Source of the DNA: Candidatus Latescibacterota bacterium | GTDB taxonomy: Bacteria > JAAXHH01 | Assembly: GCA_012270975.1 (NCBI GenBank) | Contig: JAAXHH010000136.1 | Span: forward strand, 1 to 64,000 | Direction of reading: 5' to 3' | Length of the DNA stretch: 64,000 nt | In this document: piece by piece, positions 35,920-60,171 of the stretch | Layout of the letters: each line of letters begins with the position of its first letter | Position numbering within the stretch: the first letter of the stretch is position 1 | Notes under the pieces: model-generated | Database searches by the model: none | What the model saw: the letters and a program-made list of their open reading frames with translations, nothing else | What the model was told of the DNA's origin: nothing | Translations under genes and position numbers: made by a program

Positions 35920-36007
35920 CGGAGAGGGAGGGATTCGAACCCTCGGTAGGTTTTTGACCCACAATCGCTTAGCAGGCGATCCGATTCAGCCACTCTCGCA
36001 CCTCTCC
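35920..36007 (-). tRNA. tRNA-Ser (anticodon GCT)
   Basis: Read on the minus strand, the 7-bp acceptor GGAGAGG/CCTCTCC, a CCTGCTAAG anticodon arm with GCT, a long variable arm and the GGTTCGAATCC T-arm form a class II tRNA of 88 bases. The discriminator base is G, as in serine tRNAs. CCA is not encoded. Confidence 0.95.
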
Positions 36008-36030
36008 CAAGAGATTTCCGCACCGCTGGA

Positions 36031-36117
36031 CGGTGGGGGTGGGATTCGAACCCACGGTACCCGCAAAGGTACAACGGTTTTCAAGACCGTCTCTTTCGGC
36101 CACTCAGACACCCCACC
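36031..36117 (-). tRNA. tRNA-Ser (anticodon TGA)
   Basis: On the minus strand the acceptor is GGTGGGG/CCCCACC and the anticodon loop is CTTGAAA (TGA). The long variable arm and GGTTCGAATCC T-loop mark a class II tRNA of 87 bases, with discriminator G. It lies 23 bases upstream of the other serine tRNA, so the two are probably one transcript. Confidence 0.95.
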
Positions 36118-50081: not shown

Positions 50082-51026
50082 TCACTTTATAGTCTTGCGA
50101 ACCGTGTATCTTCCTGGCGCCGCGACATAGCCCAGTTTCCTGTTGAGCGCCAGCATGGGCCCGTTCGCCGAATCGTTTTCCGTGCTTAGTGACCGCGCAC
50201 CGCGTTTCGTGGCATAGCGAATCGCAGTGAGCTTAAGCGCCATGGCGATGTGGCGCCTTCGATATCCTCGGATAACACCGGTATGCATGTTGAAAGCCTG
50301 TTGCGATTCGGGATACAGGCGTACCGCGCAGATGCCCGCCCAATCATCCCCATCGGCTGCAAGCAACTGGCCATCCGGCCGGTACCAGCCCGATTCATAT
50401 ACCCACTCGTTGAATTCCTCGAAGGAAAGCCCGGGGCTGCTCCAACCCGGCACGTCCCGGTCTGTAATCGCGTTGACTTCATAGAGTTTTTTGCGTGCTT
50501 CAGGCGTATCGCCAAAATCGGCGAGCGAGTATATATGTACTCCAGACTCGGCGACGTTCGATAGAACTCCTTTGAAGGGTGATTCGTCGAAGGTCTCGAG
50601 GTCCAGGCTCGACTGGAACAGATGCCGGTCGTACTCGAATCTTCGATTTCTCGCAAATGCCTGAGAAATCTCACAGTTATCCCGGACTTCGCTGGTTATG
50701 GTCCCCGCCTCGTGGCGCTTCAGAAACCGCATCATATCGGAGTACAGCGCGGCGCCGATGCCGCCACCCCGCTCCGAAGGAATCACGCCCACCCAGGCGT
50801 AGAACTGTCCCGGCGGATCCCAGGTCTCGTGCACCGACACCGCGTAGCCCACCACAATGTCGTCCTCCGTCACAGCTACCTGGCGATAGCTGATCCTGCC
50901 CGGAGCGGTGTGAGTCAACCACTCGTGCACCGTATCTACTGAGACGGGATTCTGCTCGAAGGCATTGACGACGGATGCGATGCCCGCTTCATCGGCGGAG
51001 GGACGGGCGGGGCGGAGGCGGAACAT
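50082..51026 (-). CDS. GNAT N-acetyltransferase family protein
   Basis: This 314-residue protein is built as two acetyltransferase-like halves. The first (about 3-150) has the ERGGGIGAALYSDMMRF acetyl-CoA loop and the second (about 160-310) has a VIRGYRRRHIAMALKLTAI loop. Such double GNATs include mycothiol-synthase-like enzymes. The substrate is unknown. It lies 56 bases after the corrinoid operon on the same strand and may be part of it. Confidence 0.8.
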   Translation of the reverse strand: MFRLRPARPSADEAGIASVVNAFEQNPVSVDTVHEWLTHTAPGRISYRQVAVTEDDIVVGYAVSVHETWDPPGQFYAWVGVIPSERGGGIGAALYSDMMRFLKRHEAGTITSEVRDNCEISQAFARNRRFEYDRHLFQSSLDLETFDESPFKGVLSNVAESGVHIYSLADFGDTPEARKKLYEVNAITDRDVPGWSSPGLSFEEFNEWVYESGWYRPDGQLLAADGDDWAGICAVRLYPESQQAFNMHTGVIRGYRRRHIAMALKLTAIRYATKRGARSLSTENDSANGPMLALNRKLGYVAAPGRYTVRKTIK

Positions 51027-51082: not shown

Positions 51083-53029
51083 CTACACCAGCACCCCCGG
51101 CATGGGCTTGAACTGGCAGGCCTCGACAAAGACCTCGAAGAAGTCGGGCGTGGTCTCAAGTTCGATGTGCTCGATGTCCTTGACCAGCGCCTCCAGCTCC
51201 GCGCGGCGCGAGCGGGACAGGAGGATCTCGCGTGCACCCTGGACGGCTGCATTACCCACCTTGACGATGCGGTCTTCGGGCACGGGGGCCAGGAACCCGA
51301 TGTCGATGGCGTTACGGACGTCCACGTAGTTGGCGAAACCGCCCGCCAGGAAAAGGCGGTCCACGTCGCCGGGCGCGACGCCGAACGTACGCAGGACGAT
51401 GTACTGCCCGCAGTAGTTGGCGGCCTTGGCCTGGGCCAGGTTGCTGGCGTCCTGGCGTGACAGGGTGATGCCGGACTCCGGCACGACAGGCACTTCGAAC
51501 TGTTTACGGTCGGCGTAGACGCCCTTGGGCGACATCATGCCGTGGCGGCGCAATTCGGCGAGGAGGTCGATCAGGCCGGAACCGCAGATGCCCTGGGCCG
51601 TGGTATCGCCGATGGTGCTCCAGGCGAACCGCCCGTCTTCCCACTTCAACGTTTCGATGGCGCCTTCGTAACCGGGCATGCCGTATTGAATGCCGCCGCC
51701 CTCGAAGGCGGGACCGGCGGGACATGAAGCCGTGATCATGCGCCCGTTGCCCGCCACGACCACTTCGGTGTTGGTGCCCACGTCCACAAGCATGGATACG
51801 CCCGGTTGCGCGGCGAGTTCGACGGTGGCCAGGTCGGCCGCCACGTCGCCGCCCACGTGGCTGGCGATGAGGGGCAGGCCGTAGACCCGGGCCTTCGGAT
51901 TGGCGCGGAGTCCGAGGCGGCGGGTGCCGATGGTGAGCGCCGTGGTCTCCCGCTCCCCCGCGAGGTATTCGTTCTCGATCAGGGACTTGTAGGGTTTCTG
52001 GCCGATGCTCTGCACGTCGAGCCGGAAGAAGAGGTCCCGCATGGTGGCGTTGCCCGCCACGACGATCTCATAGATCTCCTGCCGCGCGGTTCCCGTCCGC
52101 TCGCACCAGTCCATGATCTCGTGGTTGACGGCGTTGATGATGGCGTTCCAGAGTTCACCCTCGAACGAACCGTCGTAGGAGATCCGGTGCATCACGTCGC
52201 TGCCGCCGAATCGCTGGGGGTTCTCGAAGGAGCAGACGTGGACGCTCTTTCCGGTCTCCAGGTCCACGAAGTCCATGACCACCGTGGTCGTGCCGAGGTC
52301 GATCGCGAGCCCGTACAGGTGCCCGCGGAACTGGTCCACCTGCTCATCGTCGTAGAAAACCGCATCGCCCCTGCGGGTGACCATGGGGTCCAGCGGCGTT
52401 TCCTTTTCTTCGGTAACGGTCAGGATCTTGGGCGTACGGCGCAGGGGGGAGAAGGCGATGTCCACCTTCGGATCGATCACGCGCGCCTGGCAGGCGAGCC
52501 GGTAGTTCTCCCGCAGGAAGGACTCGGGTTTCGTCCGTGGCACGAGCCCTTCCATCCCCTCCTGTATTTCCACGATGCACTCGTGGCAGATGCCGTTGCG
52601 GAAACACGAGGTGGGCACCTGCACGGCGAGGTCGTCGGCGTAGTCGAAGATGGACTTGCCGATGACCGAGGGTTGGGTCGTCGTGCCGTCGGTCACCGAT
52701 CCGCCGGCTGGGTCTGTGGTATTTCCGGTATTCAGGTTTGGTGCATCCTGGTCGGGCCCTCCCGCTTCAGCCCGTTCGCGGGGCGCCTCATCGGTCTCCC
52801 AGGCGCTGCGGTAATCGAGCTTGTCGTCCCCGCCACACACGAGCAGGCCGCCGGCTTCACGGGGCTTGCGCTGGTTGCGGCACCCGAACCGGGCGGTGCA
52901 TTCGTCGAAGCGGTTCTTGTAGGGGCAGCGGTAGGTGGCCTGCTCGGTCGCATGGGCCATCATATCCTTGAAGATGGCCGTGATGCGGTCCAGCCGCTCC
53001 TGGTACGCCGCCTTGTCGATCTTTTTCAT
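51083..53029 (-). CDS. RACo-like corrinoid activator (2Fe-2S plus ASKHA domain)
   Basis: This 648-residue protein has an N-terminal Cys cluster (Cys35, 44, 50, 65), a plant-type [2Fe-2S] ferredoxin (Cys142, 148, 151 and 180), then a middle domain and a C-terminal ASKHA ATPase domain beginning LAIDLGTTTVVMDF near 250 and GGGFANYVD-type near 565. This order matches reductive activators of corrinoid proteins (RACo, DUF4445), which reduce inactive Co(II) to Co(I) with ATP. The first Cys set is not usual. Its partner is the corrinoid protein encoded directly upstream. Confidence 0.9.
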   Translation of the reverse strand: MKKIDKAAYQERLDRITAIFKDMMAHATEQATYRCPYKNRFDECTARFGCRNQRKPREAGGLLVCGGDDKLDYRSAWETDEAPRERAEAGGPDQDAPNLNTGNTTDPAGGSVTDGTTTQPSVIGKSIFDYADDLAVQVPTSCFRNGICHECIVEIQEGMEGLVPRTKPESFLRENYRLACQARVIDPKVDIAFSPLRRTPKILTVTEEKETPLDPMVTRRGDAVFYDDEQVDQFRGHLYGLAIDLGTTTVVMDFVDLETGKSVHVCSFENPQRFGGSDVMHRISYDGSFEGELWNAIINAVNHEIMDWCERTGTARQEIYEIVVAGNATMRDLFFRLDVQSIGQKPYKSLIENEYLAGERETTALTIGTRRLGLRANPKARVYGLPLIASHVGGDVAADLATVELAAQPGVSMLVDVGTNTEVVVAGNGRMITASCPAGPAFEGGGIQYGMPGYEGAIETLKWEDGRFAWSTIGDTTAQGICGSGLIDLLAELRRHGMMSPKGVYADRKQFEVPVVPESGITLSRQDASNLAQAKAANYCGQYIVLRTFGVAPGDVDRLFLAGGFANYVDVRNAIDIGFLAPVPEDRIVKVGNAAVQGAREILLSRSRRAELEALVKDIEHIELETTPDFFEVFVEACQFKPMPGVLV

Positions 53030-53062
53030 GGGAAAGGTAGGGGAGGCCGCCTGCCGGTTCGG

Positions 53063-53827
53063 TCAGGCTTCCTGTTCCTGCTTGAGTTCTTCGAGGAGAC
53101 GCTGGGCCAGTTCCACGCATCCCACCGCGTCCTCGGCGGTGCCGTCGGCGCCCATGTCATCGGCAAACTCCTGGGTGACCGACGCGCCGCCCACCATGAT
53201 CTTGACGTCCTCCCGCATATCGTTGTCGATGAAGGCGTCGATGGTCTTGCCCATGTTGGGCATGGTCGTGGTCAGCAGCGCCGACATGCCCAGCAGGGGC
53301 GCCTCGTGTTCCTCCACCGCGTCCATGAACTCGTCCTCGGAAGTGTCCACCCCCAGGTCGTGGACCACGAACCCGGCGCCGCGCAGCATCATGATGCACA
53401 GGTTCTTGCCGATGTCGTGGAGATCGCCTTTGACCGTGCCCATGATGACGGTGCCGACGGATTCGATGCCCGAAGCGGAGAGGATGGGCTCGATGTGGGC
53501 CATCCCGGCCTTCATGGCCCGGGCGCAGGCGAGAACTTCCGGAACGAAGATGAAGTTCTCGCGAAACTTGATGCCTACGACGCTCATGCCGGCGATCAAG
53601 CCGTCGTCCATCACTTCCAGTGCTTCAGTGCCGCCGTCCAGCGCCGCCCGGGTCAGCGTGTCGACCGTCCCGTTGTCCCCATCGATGAGGGCCGCGGAAA
53701 TTTCCTGCATGGCGGGCGTCGCCCGGGCGAAAGCGTCGATGATCCGCGTCCGCTCGTTGGGCCTTTCGATGAACTCTTCTATTTCGTCCTTCAGAAAGTC
53801 ATTGGCTATATCGTTTAATTCTGCCAT
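53063..53827 (-). CDS. Corrinoid (cobalamin-binding) methyl-carrier protein
   Basis: This 254-residue protein has the helical cap (about 30-115) and Rossmann B12-binding domain of MtbC/MttC/MetH-type carriers. DLHDIG (135-140) gives the lower-axial ligand His137, and SALLTTTM (182-189) is the second dimethylbenzimidazole-tail motif. It should shuttle a methyl group between methyltransferases. It lies between a MtaA/MtbA-like gene and the RACo-like activator. Confidence 0.95.
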   Translation of the reverse strand: MAELNDIANDFLKDEIEEFIERPNERTRIIDAFARATPAMQEISAALIDGDNGTVDTLTRAALDGGTEALEVMDDGLIAGMSVVGIKFRENFIFVPEVLACARAMKAGMAHIEPILSASGIESVGTVIMGTVKGDLHDIGKNLCIMMLRGAGFVVHDLGVDTSEDEFMDAVEEHEAPLLGMSALLTTTMPNMGKTIDAFIDNDMREDVKIMVGGASVTQEFADDMGADGTAEDAVGCVELAQRLLEELKQEQEA

Positions 53828-53894
53828 GCTCTCCTGTCCGGTCCTCCCGTTTCATGCCGAAATTGACGTCTACTCGCGTGGGCCAGGCGGACCG

Positions 53895-54938
53895 CTATGC
53901 CGCGTGGTGGACGTGCCAGTCCTTCACCGCCTGCGGGATCGCCTTCAGGTTCTCGACGGACGCCTGCAGGGGAACGGCGCACTCCGGTCCCACCATATGA
54001 ATTCCGTGTTCCAGGTTCTGGCAGACTTCCTGCCCCACTTCTTCGGGACCACGTGCGAAAAGCGTCTCGGGATTGTTGATGTTCCCCACGAGGGAGATCT
54101 TGCCGTCGACGGCCTCCATGGACTCCTGGGGCTTGTTTTTCGAATCGAAATGAAAGGCCGCGAAGCCGGTCTCGGCGATGTAGCCCATGCGGTCCACGGT
54201 GCGCCCGCAGATGTGCATGATCAGCGGGATGGGTATCCGTTCGGCCATCTCGATGTGCAGGTCCCGCAGGAAGCGGCGGTAGTATTCGCCGCTCACCAGG
54301 TCGCCCGTGGCGTGGTCCGGCAGGGTCAGGGCGTCCGCCCCGGCCTCGATCTGTGCGATGCCGAACTCCACCGTGGCCTCCTTCATGCGGTCCAGGGCGA
54401 GATGGGTCCTGCCGGGGTCGTCGAGGGACATGAGCAGGAAGGGTTCCACGCCGAAGCAGTGGTATCCCAGGGACCAGGGGCCCATGGTCTTGCCGATGAC
54501 CGCCACTTCGTCGCCGTATTCCTTCTTGAGCTTGCTGATGGCGTCGAGGACGCACTTCGTGTCCCGGTGCGTCAGGAAATCCGAAGGTATCTTGATGTCG
54601 TCCACGTCGGTCCAGATGGGTTCCCGCATCTTGACCGTAGGCCAGTTGTCCTTCTGCTCCCACTGGATCTTGCAACCCAGCGCGGAGGACTCCTGGATGA
54701 TGGTAAAGACCGGCATGATGGTGTCGAATCCGAGTTCCGTGTAGCCCGTGGCCGCGAGACGGGCCATGAGCTCCGGGTCCCGGTTGGCGTCCGGGAAAGG
54801 CGCGTCAACGAGATCCATCAGTTCCACCGTGGCGACGGACGTCGGATTGCACACGGGCGTGCGGTCCACGGGCTCTCCCCTCAGGGCAGCCAGTACCCGG
54901 TCCCGGCCCTTCATCTGCTTGATGACGCTCGTTTCCAT
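53895..54938 (-). CDS. Uroporphyrinogen-decarboxylase-family methyltransferase (MtaA/MtbA type)
   Basis: This 347-residue TIM barrel has the zinc-thiol set of MtaA/MtbA: His242 and Cys244 in MHICG and Cys320 in GPECAVP. True HemE lacks this set, so methyl transfer from or to the corrinoid protein is indicated. The methyl acceptor or donor is unknown. I start at the ATG before ETSVIKQMKG, which has a GGAGG ribosome site; a longer frame exists. Confidence 0.92.
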   Translation of the reverse strand: METSVIKQMKGRDRVLAALRGEPVDRTPVCNPTSVATVELMDLVDAPFPDANRDPELMARLAATGYTELGFDTIMPVFTIIQESSALGCKIQWEQKDNWPTVKMREPIWTDVDDIKIPSDFLTHRDTKCVLDAISKLKKEYGDEVAVIGKTMGPWSLGYHCFGVEPFLLMSLDDPGRTHLALDRMKEATVEFGIAQIEAGADALTLPDHATGDLVSGEYYRRFLRDLHIEMAERIPIPLIMHICGRTVDRMGYIAETGFAAFHFDSKNKPQESMEAVDGKISLVGNINNPETLFARGPEEVGQEVCQNLEHGIHMVGPECAVPLQASVENLKAIPQAVKDWHVHHAA

Positions 54939-55024
54939 TACGGCCTCCTTGTCGATCGCGCATGCGTCAGTCGCGCGTTGCGCATCCAACGATCGATTTT
55001 TTTCTGCCCCGCCAGTGCCGGCCC

Positions 55025-55699
55025 TCATCCATCCTGCTGACTGGGCGCGGCCAGGACGCCCCGGCTGGCGGCCGCCTCCTGTTCGCGCAGGACGGCCCGG
55101 ACGTTGGGCGCACGGACCAGCAATAGCCCGACTAGGGCGTCGTGAACGAATCCGCAGGGGAAAACCACTTGGTCCAGGGTGCCGCTTACCTCGTCGATCT
55201 CGGCCAGCTTCATCAGGCCACCCGCGATGAAGGATATACGGCGGTCGCGGTCCTTGCCCTCGCCGTGGGCCGTGACCCGGTAGACGCCGTCGCCCTCGCT
55301 CAGGACCTGGATCTGCAATCCGGATTTCTTGTCCAGGATCTGCAACGGCCGCGGTTCGACTGGGCCGGCCGGATCCAGTTTGCAGGCTTCGAGGAACACG
55401 CGCTTTACCGCCAGGTTGTGTTCATAGCCGCAGGGAAAACGCAGGCGGCCGGCGGTGGCCGGCTCCATGCCTCCGAGGACTTCCATGGCCTTCATCACGA
55501 AGGCGATCCGGTCCTCGACGCCTTCCCGCCGGCTGTAGGTGAATACCCGGTATACCGGTCCCGCGTCGTCCCGCTGGCGGTACAGGCCGATCGAAATGTC
55601 CCCGAAATGGGGATCCAGCGGAACCAGTTCGATGCGCCGGCCTATGTCGACCGTTTGGCCCAATAGCCTTCTCCGTTCGCGGCTGGTCCTAAACGCCAC
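55025..55699 (-). CDS. Unknown protein with two ~90-residue FPCG(Y/F)xH repeats
   Basis: This 224-residue protein fits no family I know. It is internally duplicated: YRV at 50 with FPCGYEH at 88-94, and YRV at 140 with FPCGFVH at 180-186. Each copy has a strand-helix layout ending in the Cys/His motif, so it may bind a metal or a corrinoid (inference only). There is no signal peptide. It sits between the homocysteine methyltransferase/PF13769 genes and the MtaA/MtbA-type gene, in what looks like one operon. Confidence 0.8.
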   Translation of the reverse strand: MAFRTSRERRRLLGQTVDIGRRIELVPLDPHFGDISIGLYRQRDDAGPVYRVFTYSRREGVEDRIAFVMKAMEVLGGMEPATAGRLRFPCGYEHNLAVKRVFLEACKLDPAGPVEPRPLQILDKKSGLQIQVLSEGDGVYRVTAHGEGKDRDRRISFIAGGLMKLAEIDEVSGTLDQVVFPCGFVHDALVGLLLVRAPNVRAVLREQEAAASRGVLAAPSQQDG

Positions 55700-55766
55700 C
55701 GCCGCGGCCGTCCTTTTCGCCTGATCGCTTGCCGCGGGCCCATCTCCTGACCTTTCGCGGCTGGTC

Positions 55767-56036
55767 CTATCCCTTGTCGTACTCTTCTTCCAGTAGCTTC
55801 AGAACGGCTGCCGCGACCGTTTCCGCGTCGTTTCCTTCCCCGGTCCATTCCCGTTTTTCGGACCAGTGCCACTCGTCCAGGTAGGCGTCGGTGCCGGTCA
55901 GGCCGTCCCGCATGGCCACCCGGTCGATTTCCTGCTGGAACCAGTCGGGCATCTGGCGCGACAGTGGCCGCCGGCCTCCGTAGACGCGCACCTGCGCCGG
56001 GATATCCCGCCAGTACAGTACCTGGTACACTGCCAT
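55767..56036 (-). CDS. Small PF13769-type protein ('virulence factor')
   Basis: This 89-residue protein begins MAVYQVLYWRDIPAQVRVYGG and has the WFQQEIDRVAMRDGL and LDEWHWSEKREWTGEGNDAETVAA blocks. I recognise these as the PF13769 'Virulence_fact' family. Despite the name, this family tends to occur beside C1/B12 methyl-transfer genes, as here. The start is the ATG before AVYQVLYW. Its function is not known. Confidence 0.7.
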   Translation of the reverse strand: MAVYQVLYWRDIPAQVRVYGGRRPLSRQMPDWFQQEIDRVAMRDGLTGTDAYLDEWHWSEKREWTGEGNDAETVAAAVLKLLEEEYDKG

Positions 56037-56142
56037 GCCGACCGATCCCGTGCTCAGGCGACAAGCGCTTCGCCTAAACTGCCGCAGGCTCTCCGGCCCT
56101 CCGCTGCCGCAGGCTGTCCGGCCGCACGCTACTCCCGTATGC

Positions 56143-57144
56143 TCACGCCGCCGCCCGGTCCATCGCCTCGCGGAAGGCCCGGATGTGACTGACACCCGTG
56201 CCGCAACATCCGCCGATGAAGTAGGCGCCGGCTTCCAGGAGGCCCGGCACGAAAGCGGCCATTTCCTCCGGCGTGTTCGCGTAATAGGTCCGGTGCTGCT
56301 CGTCCAGTCGGGCCTTCCCCGCGTTCGGGTAGGCCATCATGCGTTTCGGCGCATCCATTCGGGCGTCCATGGCGCGCTTCAACTGGCCGATGCCGTTGAT
56401 GGCGTAGGGCATTCCCGTATGCTCGTCGCGCCGGGATTCCGCGCCGCAGTTCAGGCCGACGATCTGCACGTGCTCGAGCAAGTCCTGCCCAGCGGCCTGC
56501 GTGCCGCCCGCGAGGATCTCCAGGAGATCCGCCGCCGAATGGCCCCAGTCCGTTTTGTAGATGACCTCGCCCGTTGTCCGGTCCTTCGTGTACTTGTACG
56601 TCTGGTTCACGGCGATGGGTATACCGAACTGTCTCAACTCGTTCACGGCCAGGGCCGCCTCGTTGGCGGAGAACATGGTCTCGACGCAGAAGAAATCCAC
56701 GCCGCCCTCCGCCAGCGCCGTGCCCACGCGCTCGTGGGCGTCCCGGGCGATGCTGTTCGCGATACCGAACTCCGTGTCGCCGCTGTCGGCCTCGATGGCG
56801 CCAGGCAGCGGACCGATGGAACCAGCGAGGTACACCTCCCTGCCGCTGCGCTCAATGGCGGCACGGGCGTGTTCCACGGATCGCCGGATCAGCCCGTCGG
56901 ATTCGGAGGCGTCCTTCCCCGCCATTTCCAGATGGGGATGCGACGCCACGAAGGTATTCGTGCCGATCGCTTCCGAACCTGCTTCAATATAGTCGAAATG
57001 AATGGCCCTGACAATGTCGGGGTGGAGCTCGTTGGCCAGCGCGCTGTTGGCCAGTTCGATGCCGCGGGCGAAGAGTTCCGTGCCGAATCCGCCGTCGTAA
57101 AGGAGGGGCCGGTCTTCGGCGATGCGTTCAAGAAAGGGTTTCAT
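56143..57144 (-). CDS. Homocysteine S-methyltransferase family protein
   Basis: This 333-residue TIM-barrel enzyme has the zinc-thiolate set: Cys233 in LNCGAE and Cys313/Cys314 in GGCCGT. The DGGFGTELFARGIE start and IGTNTFVASHP loop are typical. It makes methionine from homocysteine with a methyl donor such as S-methylmethionine, betaine or a methylated corrinoid. Its place upstream of a corrinoid protein suggests it is the final acceptor step here (inference). Confidence 0.92.
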   Translation of the reverse strand: MKPFLERIAEDRPLLYDGGFGTELFARGIELANSALANELHPDIVRAIHFDYIEAGSEAIGTNTFVASHPHLEMAGKDASESDGLIRRSVEHARAAIERSGREVYLAGSIGPLPGAIEADSGDTEFGIANSIARDAHERVGTALAEGGVDFFCVETMFSANEAALAVNELRQFGIPIAVNQTYKYTKDRTTGEVIYKTDWGHSAADLLEILAGGTQAAGQDLLEHVQIVGLNCGAESRRDEHTGMPYAINGIGQLKRAMDARMDAPKRMMAYPNAGKARLDEQHRTYYANTPEEMAAFVPGLLEAGAYFIGGCCGTGVSHIRAFREAMDRAAA

Positions 57145-57199
57145 TGGGGCTTCTCAGACTTTCGCACCGGCATGCGCCGGAAACGCCCCGGACCGTACC

Positions 57200-58147
57200 T
57201 CAGGGGGCCTCGAAGGACACCTGTCCCCGGGTGCGGAGTTCCATGGGCCGCAGCGCGTGATAGATGAAATCGTTTACCGGCGTGGCCACGCCCGCTTCCT
57301 TTCCCATGCGGACCAGCGCGCCGGTCTGTGCTTCCAGCTCGGAGAATCGTCCTTCCATGATATCCCGCTGCATGGAGGCGGTGCCGCCGTATTCGACGCT
57401 GTCCAGGATGGCCAGGGTCCGGGCGACGATGTCGTCCGGAAGCCCGACCCCCAGCGCAGTGGCCACCTCGTGGATCTCCTCCATGGCACCCTCGAGGAGG
57501 CGGCGCGTACCGGGCTGGCTTCGGACGACGCCGATCGGCGCGCGGGTAACGCCGCCGATCCCGCTCCACGAAGCGATGAGGATGTACTTGCGCCACATGG
57601 CGGCCTGAATGTCGGGCGGTGTATCGACGATGAGCCCCCTGGTGCGTTCAAACGCCTGGCGCAGCCGGTCTACCCGTTCGCTCGAACGGTTGTCCCATTC
57701 GCCGAAATTGACGAAAGGTTCGTAGGCCACGTGTCGGATGAGTCCCGGTTCGGCGATGAAGGAGACGATTCCGCAGACACCGCCAAGCACATGGCGCCAG
57801 CCGAACTCCGCGGCGAGTTGCTCCGGCGTCTCCACACCGTTTTCCATGGGCAGAATACAGGTATTCGGTCCGAGCATGGGACGCAGTCCCTCGACGGCCT
57901 CAGGTACCTGCCAGCACTTTACGCAGAGCATGACCACGTCCACGTCGCCGGCTTTCTCGGGATCACCGGTGACCTGGATCGAGGGCAGCGTAAAATCGCC
58001 CTTCGTACTTTCCACGCGAAGGCCGTTTTCGCGCAACGCTTCCAGATGCGGACCGCGTGCTACGAAGACGACGTCTTCCCCTGCCTCGGCGAGTCGCCCC
58101 CCGTAATATCCACCTACGCCACCAGTACCAAATACCGCTATGCGCAC
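57200..58147 (-). CDS. Ketopantoate reductase (PanE/ApbA)-like dehydrogenase
   Basis: This 315-residue protein has the NADP-binding GTGGVGGYYGG loop (about 6-16), the conserved Lys in CVKCWQ and the C-terminal helical domain (LRQAFERTRGLIVD to the end). The N-terminus reads naturally from a GTG with CGGAGG six bases upstream, so I use that start. The fit is to the PanE/ApbA family. Its role beside C1 genes is unknown; another 2-hydroxy/keto acid is possible. It heads the corrinoid operon, with 55 bases to the next gene. Confidence 0.85.
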   Translation of the reverse strand: MRIAVFGTGGVGGYYGGRLAEAGEDVVFVARGPHLEALRENGLRVESTKGDFTLPSIQVTGDPEKAGDVDVVMLCVKCWQVPEAVEGLRPMLGPNTCILPMENGVETPEQLAAEFGWRHVLGGVCGIVSFIAEPGLIRHVAYEPFVNFGEWDNRSSERVDRLRQAFERTRGLIVDTPPDIQAAMWRKYILIASWSGIGGVTRAPIGVVRSQPGTRRLLEGAMEEIHEVATALGVGLPDDIVARTLAILDSVEYGGTASMQRDIMEGRFSELEAQTGALVRMGKEAGVATPVNDFIYHALRPMELRTRGQVSFEAP

Positions 58148-58320: not shown

Positions 58321-60171
58321 TTACGGCTCGCCGCGTTCCAGGACGAAGGCTTCCATGGCGTAGTACTGGGGAAATCCCAGCTTGTCCAGGCGCCGTGCCG
58401 TGTGGGTATTGCGGTCCTGCACGCGCTCCCAGAACTCCCGGTCGTCGTACGCCCCCGGGAACATGGCGGTGTCCTTCTGGGACTCGTGTCGGAAGATGGC
58501 CTGGATCTTGCGCTGGAGGTCTTCATAGGAAAGGGGGATGAAAACGTCCGCCTCGTCCACTTCCCACTCCTGCCAGGCGCCCCGGTACAGCCATACTTCC
58601 GGGTTCGTCCCGTCGTAGACGGCGAGGGCCTGGTCGATGACTTCCTTGCACACGCGATGGGTGCCGTGGGGGTCGGACAGGTCTCCGGCGACGAAGACGA
58701 CCTCGGGGCGGATTTCATTCAGCAGGTTCAGCACGATGCCGACGTCGTCCTCGCAGACGGGGTTTTTCTTCACCTGTCCGGTTTTGTAGAAGGGCAGGTC
58801 CAGGAACCGTGTCTTCTCCGGTGGGATGTTCACCGTCGACGCCGCCGCGATGGCCTCGGACCGGCGGATGTTGGTCTTGATGACCTGTACCTCGGGGATG
58901 TCGACCTGTCCGGGTTGTTTCGCCGCGAGGAAGGACCGGACCGTGTCCACGATGCCGTCGAACCGTTCGTGCGGGCAGCCCAGGTCGCGGAAGGTCAACC
59001 CGATGAAGTCGATGAGCCGTTTCACGTCCTCGTCGAATACGGCGATGTTGCCGCTGGTCATGTAGGCGATGGTGATGTCGTTTCCGACGGCGGACAGGCG
59101 GAACAGCGTGCCGCCCATGGAGATGACATCGTCGTCCGGGTGGGGCGAAAAGCAGATGCACCGCTTGCCGGTGAACAGGTCCTGGCGCCCGTATATCTTG
59201 GCGCGGACCGCGTCGAAGGTCTTCCGGTTCAGCTCGTCGACCGACTGGACGGTGTCGACCAGGGAGTAGAGATCGTGGGCGTTGTAATCCCGCCGCTGCA
59301 GGTGCAGCACCGGCTTGTCCGTCCGCTCGCACAGCCAGAGCACGGCCCGCCGCGAAAGCTGGTCGGTCCAGTCCACCGCGTGGTTGTTCAGCCAGGGCAG
59401 CTTGACGCGGGTAAGTTCGCTCGATGCGGCCGGGTCGATGAAAACCGTGGCGTTCGGATGGTTCTGCAGGTAGCTGGCCGCGACGAGGGGACTCACCTCG
59501 CCTTCGACGGCCTCCCGGACGATGGGCGCCTTGTGCTCCCCCGTGGCCATGAGGATGATCCGCTCCGCGTCGAGGATGGTGCCGACGCCCATGGTCACGG
59601 CCTCGATGGGCACGTTCTCTTCGCCATGGAAACTGGAGGCCGCGTCCTTGCGCGTGATCTCGTCCAGCCGGATCAGGCGGGTCCGGGTATCGGGCAGCGA
59701 GCCGGGCTCGTTGAAACCGATATGCCCCGTTCGCCCGACGCCCAGAAGCTGGATGCCGATGCCGCCCACGGCACGGATGCGTTCCTCGTACCAGTCGCAG
59801 TGTTCCTCGATTTCTTCCGGTGCCAGGTCGCCCAGGGGAACGAAGATCTGGTCGTCCGGTATGTCGACGTGGTCGAAGAGGTATTCCCGCATGTACCGGT
59901 GATAGCTCTGCGCCGACTGTCTCGACATGGGGTAGTATTCGTCGAGGTTGAACGTGACGACGTTCTCGAAACTGACGCCGCCGCGATGAAACGCGATGAG
60001 TTCACCGTATACGTCGATGGGCGTGGAGCCCGTGCAGAGGCCGAGTACGGCCAACTGGCCCTGCTCGCCGCGGCCCCTGGCGTAATCGACGATTTCGCGG
60101 GCGACCGTCTTCGACAGCGTCTTGTGGTCCGGACAGACTACGATGGGGATATGTTCGGTGCTGGGATGCAA
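58321..60171 (-). CDS. nagB: Glucosamine-6-phosphate deaminase/PIG-L deacetylase fusion
   Basis: Fused protein of 616 residues. The N-terminal NagB domain (about 1-275) has Asp77 in NLDEYY, His150 and Glu155 in GRTGHIGFNEPG. The residue aligned with E. coli Asp141 is Thr148. The C-terminal LmbE/PIG-L domain (about 335-610) has the metal-binding HPDDD at 344-348 and SDPHGTH later. These enzymes deacetylate N-acetylglucosamine derivatives, so the pair may open and deacetylate amino sugars in one protein. Known from Bacteroidota-type fusions. It stands alone. Confidence 0.9.
   Translation of the reverse strand: MHPSTEHIPIVVCPDHKTLSKTVAREIVDYARGRGEQGQLAVLGLCTGSTPIDVYGELIAFHRGGVSFENVVTFNLDEYYPMSRQSAQSYHRYMREYLFDHVDIPDDQIFVPLGDLAPEEIEEHCDWYEERIRAVGGIGIQLLGVGRTGHIGFNEPGSLPDTRTRLIRLDEITRKDAASSFHGEENVPIEAVTMGVGTILDAERIILMATGEHKAPIVREAVEGEVSPLVAASYLQNHPNATVFIDPAASSELTRVKLPWLNNHAVDWTDQLSRRAVLWLCERTDKPVLHLQRRDYNAHDLYSLVDTVQSVDELNRKTFDAVRAKIYGRQDLFTGKRCICFSPHPDDDVISMGGTLFRLSAVGNDITIAYMTSGNIAVFDEDVKRLIDFIGLTFRDLGCPHERFDGIVDTVRSFLAAKQPGQVDIPEVQVIKTNIRRSEAIAAASTVNIPPEKTRFLDLPFYKTGQVKKNPVCEDDVGIVLNLLNEIRPEVVFVAGDLSDPHGTHRVCKEVIDQALAVYDGTNPEVWLYRGAWQEWEVDEADVFIPLSYEDLQRKIQAIFRHESQKDTAMFPGAYDDREFWERVQDRNTHTARRLDKLGFPQYYAMEAFVLERGEP

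Follow-up and report, generated by a model that had tools for sequence, protein, structure and literature searches.

A predicted corrinoid-dependent methyl-transfer cluster built around an FPCG–UROD pair in a Candidatus Latescibacterota bacterium

Introduction

How could a bacterium load methyl groups onto a corrinoid protein and pass them to homocysteine when it has no methyltransferase of the MttB type? This question is raised by a seven-gene cluster in the 64,000-nucleotide stretch analysed here as a whole (the window), which comes from an assembly of a Candidatus Latescibacterota bacterium. In the cluster an MtaA/CmuA-type corrinoid methyltransferase (UROD) stands beside a duplicated protein (FPCG) for which neither Pfam nor NCBIfam gave a matching family. 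We find that FPCG is accompanied by UROD at every locus where it was detected, so that, as judged from gene content, FPCG is an obligate partner of UROD. The cluster as a whole can be read as a corrinoid-dependent demethylase that feeds methionine formation, in which the UROD–FPCG pair would take the methyl group from a donor onto the corrinoid, a reading to which we give about an even chance of being right.

Results

All seven genes run head-to-tail from 58147 down to 51083 on the minus strand, with intergenic gaps of 33-106 bp, in the order KPR, HMT, VF, FPCG, UROD, corrinoid protein and RACo. A sequence-only reading had placed these seven parts on one strand with short gaps, and the domain searches together with the gap lengths bear this out for every part. 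The features are the following.

57200..58147, minus strand: KPR, ketopantoate-reductase-like protein, 315 aa, GTG start; PF02558/PF08546 (ApbA/ApbA_C)
56143..57144, minus strand: HMT, homocysteine S-methyltransferase, 333 aa; PF02574, E=4e-50
55767..56036, minus strand: VF, 89 aa; PF13769, 60 bits against a cutoff of 25
55025..55663, minus strand: FPCG, 212 aa, TTG start; internal duplication, no Pfam or NCBIfam family
55418..55438, minus strand: first FPCG motif, FPCGYEH (C78, H82), invariant in the alignment
55142..55162, minus strand: second FPCG motif, FPCGFVH (C170, H174), invariant in the alignment
53895..54938, minus strand: UROD, MtaA/CmuA-type corrinoid methyltransferase; PF01208, E=1.5e-66; TIGR01463 and PRK06252 above cutoff
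54207..54215, minus strand: UROD zinc ligands His-x-Cys (HIC), conserved, aligned with MtaA
53979..53981, minus strand: third UROD zinc ligand, Cys (GPEC), conserved, aligned with MtaA
53063..53827, minus strand: corrinoid protein, 254 aa; PF02607 and PF02310, B12 motif DLHDIG
51083..53029, minus strand: RACo/RamA-type reductive activator, 648 aa; four-Cys domain, 2Fe-2S ferredoxin and ASKHA domain
about 52751..53029, minus strand: N-terminal four-Cys domain of RACo (C35, C44, C50, C65), cysteines invariant in the alignment

The start of FPCG is most likely TTG 55663, because this is where the relatives start, with MGQT, and that of UROD is most likely ATG 54938, which is preceded by AAGGAGG. 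The genome to which the window belongs (G000; 4.06 Mb, 98% complete) is one of 16 genomes in the small phylum-level group that was compared. The comparison set consists mostly of metagenome bins, and in it G numbers denote genomes and L numbers denote loci. The order HMT-VF-FPCG-UROD-corrinoid protein is kept in every genome of the genus examined, as far as the contigs extend, and KPR-HMT-VF-FPCG-UROD is found again in another family of the same order. Scans of the locus for promoters and terminators gave no clear signal.

With FPCG alone as the query, a scan of 84,980 species genomes gave 50 loci, in Latescibacterota, Poribacteria, Acidobacteriota (mainly Bryobacterales) and one Verrucomicrobia record. 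Each of the 50 has UROD in the same orientation no more than ~1 kb downstream of FPCG, a small gene separating the two in a few cases. Because UROD was absent from the query, this pairing is not built into the search. A lack of co-occurrence in other genomes, which would have spoken against the sequence-only reading, is not what these loci and the gene order kept across the genus show. At the loci outside the genus, identity to the window copy is 77-87% for UROD and 47-68% for FPCG. The membrane-protein and serine-hydrolase-like genes that stand beside the pair in Poribacteria look unrelated.

The pairing also holds within one order surveyed in 150 genomes. Among these Bryobacterales, with UROD counted at E<=1e-60, UROD occurs in 11 genomes and FPCG in nine, all nine within the 11 (Fisher p = 7e-13, genome relatedness ignored). 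Divergence is greatest in the two UROD copies that have no FPCG (63 and 68% identity). RACo is present in 9/9 of the FPCG carriers, as against 50/150 overall (p = 3e-5, again with relatedness ignored). In a maximum-likelihood tree the FPCG-linked URODs form one group (98/99), with the nearest FPCG-less copies outside it, followed by MtaA and others. The literature searched describes the FPCG–UROD pairing nowhere among the papers found.

As for FPCG itself, the sequence-only reading had called it duplicated, and the alignment of its two halves by hhalign shows a duplication beyond chance (probability 96.5, E=7e-10). C78, H82, C170 and H174, which make up two Cys-x3-His motifs, are invariant in an alignment of 34 sequences. 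The AlphaFold2 model is confident (mean pLDDT 88.6, pTM 0.83) and consists of a repeat that occurs twice; in each copy helices come after the strands, and the Cys-x3-His motif is placed directly before the second helix. The motifs may form a metal site or take part in thiol chemistry. Foldseek of the model against PDB and BFVD gave insignificant matches only (PUR repeats, RNA polymerase subunit L), and the sequence profile against PDB gave nothing convincing. FPCG thus appears to lie outside every described family found.

For UROD, the scores exceed the cutoffs of TIGR01463 mtaA_cmuA (244.6 vs 235.4) and of PRK06252, methylcobalamin:CoM methyltransferase (260.4 vs 244), and stay below the equivalog cutoffs for MtaA/MtbA proper (NF040654, 237 vs 400; NF041608, 192 vs 600). 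The nearest solved structure is MtaA 4ay7 (E=8e-53), with which the His-x-Cys...Cys zinc ligands, conserved throughout the UROD alignment, line up. The window genome has two URO-D proteins only, HemE and UROD. In passing, two genomes of the same order hold many more URO-D paralogues than the two of the window genus, 33 in G014 and 22 in G015 (e.g. L093, L146-L150); this expansion is MtaA/Mlp-like, and in G015 corrinoid, RACo and HMT genes lie nearby.

On the donor side, MttB (PF06253) is missing from the whole window assembly, as it is from nine other genomes with the system or neighbouring it, a search that covered MttB and left MtaB, MtmB and MtbB outside it. The sequence-only reading had likewise seen no MttB-type enzyme, and a complete MttB system elsewhere would have spoken against it; none exists in these ten genomes. 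On the acceptor side, HMT, the probable acceptor module, resembles MetH and BHMT structures. The window genome has no stand-alone methyl-tetrahydrofolate:corrinoid methyltransferase (MeTr), its PF00809 matches being DHPS and MetH only, so that homocysteine is the only acceptor visible there and the methyl group most likely goes to it.

In relatives the acceptor genes differ by locus: HMT in the window and L054, MeTr in L129 and L132-L134, and both in L023 (FPCG-UROD-corrinoid-RACo-MeTr-VF-Ldh-HMT) and L043 (FPCG-UROD-corrinoid-RACo-MTHFR-MeTr-HMT). Some Bryobacterales have FPCG-UROD-corrinoid with a small four-Cys gene at one locus and RACo-HMT at another. In others the order FPCG-UROD-corrinoid-four-Cys-RACo continues into a pterin-binding methyltransferase and/or VF. 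Three Poribacteria with a complete or near-complete main contig have FPCG-UROD at one locus and their single RACo elsewhere, as corrinoid-RACo-HMT in two genomes and corrinoid-RACo in one. From these gene contents, the acceptor side is evidently exchangeable, being homocysteine or folate, with FPCG-UROD, the corrinoid protein and RACo constant. Because the acceptor module varies while FPCG-UROD stays, the pair is most likely the donor-side methyltransferase.

The remaining proteins fit such a system. In RACo the domains Fer2 (PF00111), PF17651 and PF14574 are over cutoff and the named AcsV and RamA models are below it. Its first 93 residues form the extra four-Cys domain, which has no Pfam match and a poor structure model (pTM 0.44), and which is free-standing in Bryobacterales and L024, with open reading frames of its own in L024, L060, L132 and L134. 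The best NCBIfam relatives of the corrinoid protein are of MtgC type, below cutoff (NF047996, 189.8 vs 370; NF047995, 174 vs 310). VF is fused to RACo in Terrarubrum (plasmid, L107 5986-8268), and a fusion to the corrinoid protein in Gemmatirosa (plasmid, L154 7974-8939) is probable only, at 22.9 bits against the cutoff of 25. In Azoarcus and Sinorhizobium VF stands in clusters with MTHFR, MeTr and ASKHA genes. Since it is fused to the activator once and elsewhere lies beside folate and corrinoid methyltransferases, VF is likely an accessory of corrinoid methyl transfer or activation, and the Pfam name 'virulence factor' of PF13769 is misleading and looks like a misannotation. It is noted that the Gemmatirosa corrinoid cluster also holds a 403-aa protein without Pfam match between RACo and HMT (L154 10806-12014).

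KPR, the sole ApbA_C protein of the window genome, adjoins HMT in the genus, in G001 and in L028, and follows VF-RACo in Terrarubrum; in Poribacteria and Acidobacteriota it is not beside the cluster. A genome of the same family (G013, 99% complete) has no MtaA-type UROD, FPCG, RACo or ApbA_C protein, KPR being thus absent together with the cluster. By these distributions KPR appears to be an optional part, whose membership is limited to the phylum of the window, and it may simply serve pantothenate synthesis.

Several loci of Latescibacterota/Poribacteria and of Bryobacterales have a GntR/FCD regulator gene divergent from FPCG. The exact palindrome TTGTCNGACAA lies directly upstream of FPCG, in one copy, at seven loci from Acidobacteriota (L063, L129-L134); in L129 and L131-L134 it is beside the divergent GntR/FCD gene and is a candidate operator. 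The palindrome occurs in no other comparison locus except shorter stretches of the same places, and it is absent from the window, where 15 two-mismatch matches compare with 20 expected. The regulator and TTGTCNGACAA suggest substrate induction in the Acidobacteriota relatives. Together with the MTHFR gene beside MeTr in L043, they suggest an inducible catabolic role of the system.

Around the cluster, a GNAT gene (50082-51026) lies downstream within the genus at varying distance and is not counted as part of it. Two further observations in the window concern other genes: 58321-60171 encodes a glucosamine-6-phosphate isomerase-like domain fused to a PIG-L type deacetylase domain, and 35920-36117 holds a tRNA-Ser pair side by side with the anticodons GCT and TGA.

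Discussion

Based on these data, we propose the following pathway. UROD and FPCG would transfer a methyl group from a small donor to the Co(I) corrinoid protein, HMT would pass it from the methyl-corrinoid to homocysteine, yielding methionine, and RACo with its Cys-rich domain, probably together with VF, would carry out the ATP-driven re-reduction of Co(II). In relatives MeTr, with or without MTHFR, would replace or join HMT, and the methyl group would enter the folate pool. The donor would most likely be an S-methyl, possibly a Se-methyl, compound, because UROD has the invariant His-Cys-Cys zinc site, a ligand set that has been argued to mark S- or Se-methyl chemistry in the URO-D superfamily (Kountz and Balskus, PMC10418091). 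The sequence-only reading had the parts down for methyl transfer through a corrinoid to homocysteine, with which every part is consistent. It had also left the choice between the MtaA/MtbA-type enzyme itself taking the methyl group and a missing enzyme doing so, and the former is now the best-supported reading, given the absence of MttB, HemE and UROD as the only URO-D proteins, and acceptors that vary while FPCG-UROD stays.

The sporadic occurrence of the system, in 9/150 Bryobacterales, speaks for this demethylase proposal, while several points weigh against it. MtaA, the closest characterised relative of UROD, runs in the opposite way, from methyl-corrinoid to a thiol. In Poribacteria the corrinoid-RACo(-HMT) genes lie apart from FPCG-UROD. 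The window genome has a full-length MetH and a bifunctional-type HMT/MTHFR elsewhere, so that ordinary methionine synthesis does not depend on the cluster and the need for the route is not obvious. Moreover, Bmt-type HMTs can methylate homocysteine directly from dimethylsulfoniopropionate or betaine without cobalamin (PMC12366255), and HMT might therefore act alone.

The direction of MtaA leads to a different explanation, in which UROD would be an acceptor-side thiol methyltransferase, with the methyl group coming from methyl-tetrahydrofolate via MeTr or from another donor, the target being a small thiol or the FPCG cysteines, and HMT serving as a second acceptor. The thiol-activating type of the UROD zinc site, the two invariant cysteines of FPCG and the MeTr gene in the operon of several Acidobacteriota with no HMT alongside all agree with it. 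However, with no stand-alone MeTr in the window genome the corrinoid would be left without a methyl donor, the MTHFR of L043 and the GntR/FCD-type control in relatives look catabolic, and there is no known thiol product; we regard this explanation as unlikely. If folate were the donor, UROD could alternatively replace the pterin module of a split methionine synthase, taking the methyl group from methyl-tetrahydrofolate. MetE, to which UROD is related, belongs to the URO-D superfamily (PMC10418091), and HMT, the corrinoid protein and RACo are the remaining modules of the split MetH of Phaeobacter (PMC5764234). A true pterin-binding methyltransferase beside UROD, as in L023, L043 and Bryobacterales, would then be superfluous, both the window genome and complete Poribacteria chromosomes already encode a full MetH, and UROD is closer to MtaA than to any folate enzyme, which makes such a synthase quite improbable.

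The cluster could also belong, as an outlier, to the mlp gene clusters, for salvage of methyl selenide or methylthioadenosine, where an Mlp-like UROD with the His-Cys-Cys site, a corrinoid protein and a Ram activator likewise stand together (PMC10418091). Here there is one Mlp, not two, FPCG, VF and HMT are outside the core of mlp clusters, several relatives have a folate methyltransferase, and the published type 1 clusters are limited to obligate anaerobes, while many of the genomes with the cluster were binned from sponges or soil and may not be such anaerobes. We consider this membership very improbable.

A comparison with the known systems places the proposed demethylase more closely. With the soluble coenzyme M methyltransferases MtaA/MtbA/MtsA and the mlp clusters (PMC10418091) it shares the URO-D fold, the zinc site and the clustered corrinoid protein and Ram/RACo activator, whereas here a lone UROD in its own clade comes with obligate FPCG, with HMT or MeTr as acceptors and with VF. 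Taken as a type 1 mlp cluster, the locus encodes Ram/RACo and the corrinoid protein within 2 kb and on one strand, but HemE and UROD, the only URO-D proteins of the genome, leave one Mlp where at least two are needed, and type 1 membership was rejected on this ground. Such a cluster has no folate methyltransferase within 20 kb; there is none among the window genes, and L023, L043, L129 and L132-L134 have one.

In MtgBCDE of Ruegeria pomeroyi, which acts on glycine betaine, a corrinoid carrier, a PF02574 homocysteine module and a RamA activator serve both demethylation and methionine synthesis (PMC12478193). These parts are shared here, and the folate module of relatives and VF in similar proteobacterial clusters add to the likeness. 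By contrast, UROD-FPCG stands in place of MtgB, and the window genome has no folate module (MtgD). Membership in MtgBCDE itself was rejected, with no MttB-type MtgB in the ten genomes and the corrinoid protein below the MtgC cutoffs. With the split methionine synthase of Phaeobacter inhibens and its RamA-like activator (PMC5764234) the cluster shares separate homocysteine, corrinoid and activator proteins, here with UROD and FPCG added and a full MetH also present; a complete split MetH was rejected, since a separate pterin-binding module is missing from the window genome. By analogy, the system would work like MtgBCDE with UROD-FPCG in the part of MtgB.

Chloromethane methyltransferase CmuA offers a further likeness, being a URO-D methyltransferase with a corrinoid module in aerobic bacteria, whereas here the two are separate genes. 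Kinship with CmuA was rejected, as UROD had no match at E<=0.01 against plasmid pCMU01, which carries cmuA.

Finally, we note a farther-reaching proposal, in which we have low confidence, that FPCG is a new type of corrinoid-methyltransferase subunit. Its duplicated Cys-x3-His motifs would then take part in the chemistry, as a metal or thiol methyl relay or in donor binding, and would make the MtaA-type enzyme a donor-specific demethylase for a compound new among corrinoid substrates, in several bacterial phyla that are mostly uncultured.

Conclusions

FPCG is defined here as a protein family with an obligate and testable partner. The proposed pathway predicts that bacteria from poorly cultured phyla, associated with sponges and soil, would harvest methyl groups without MttB, and in this way their methionine and folate would be linked to methyl-sulfur, or other methyl, compounds.

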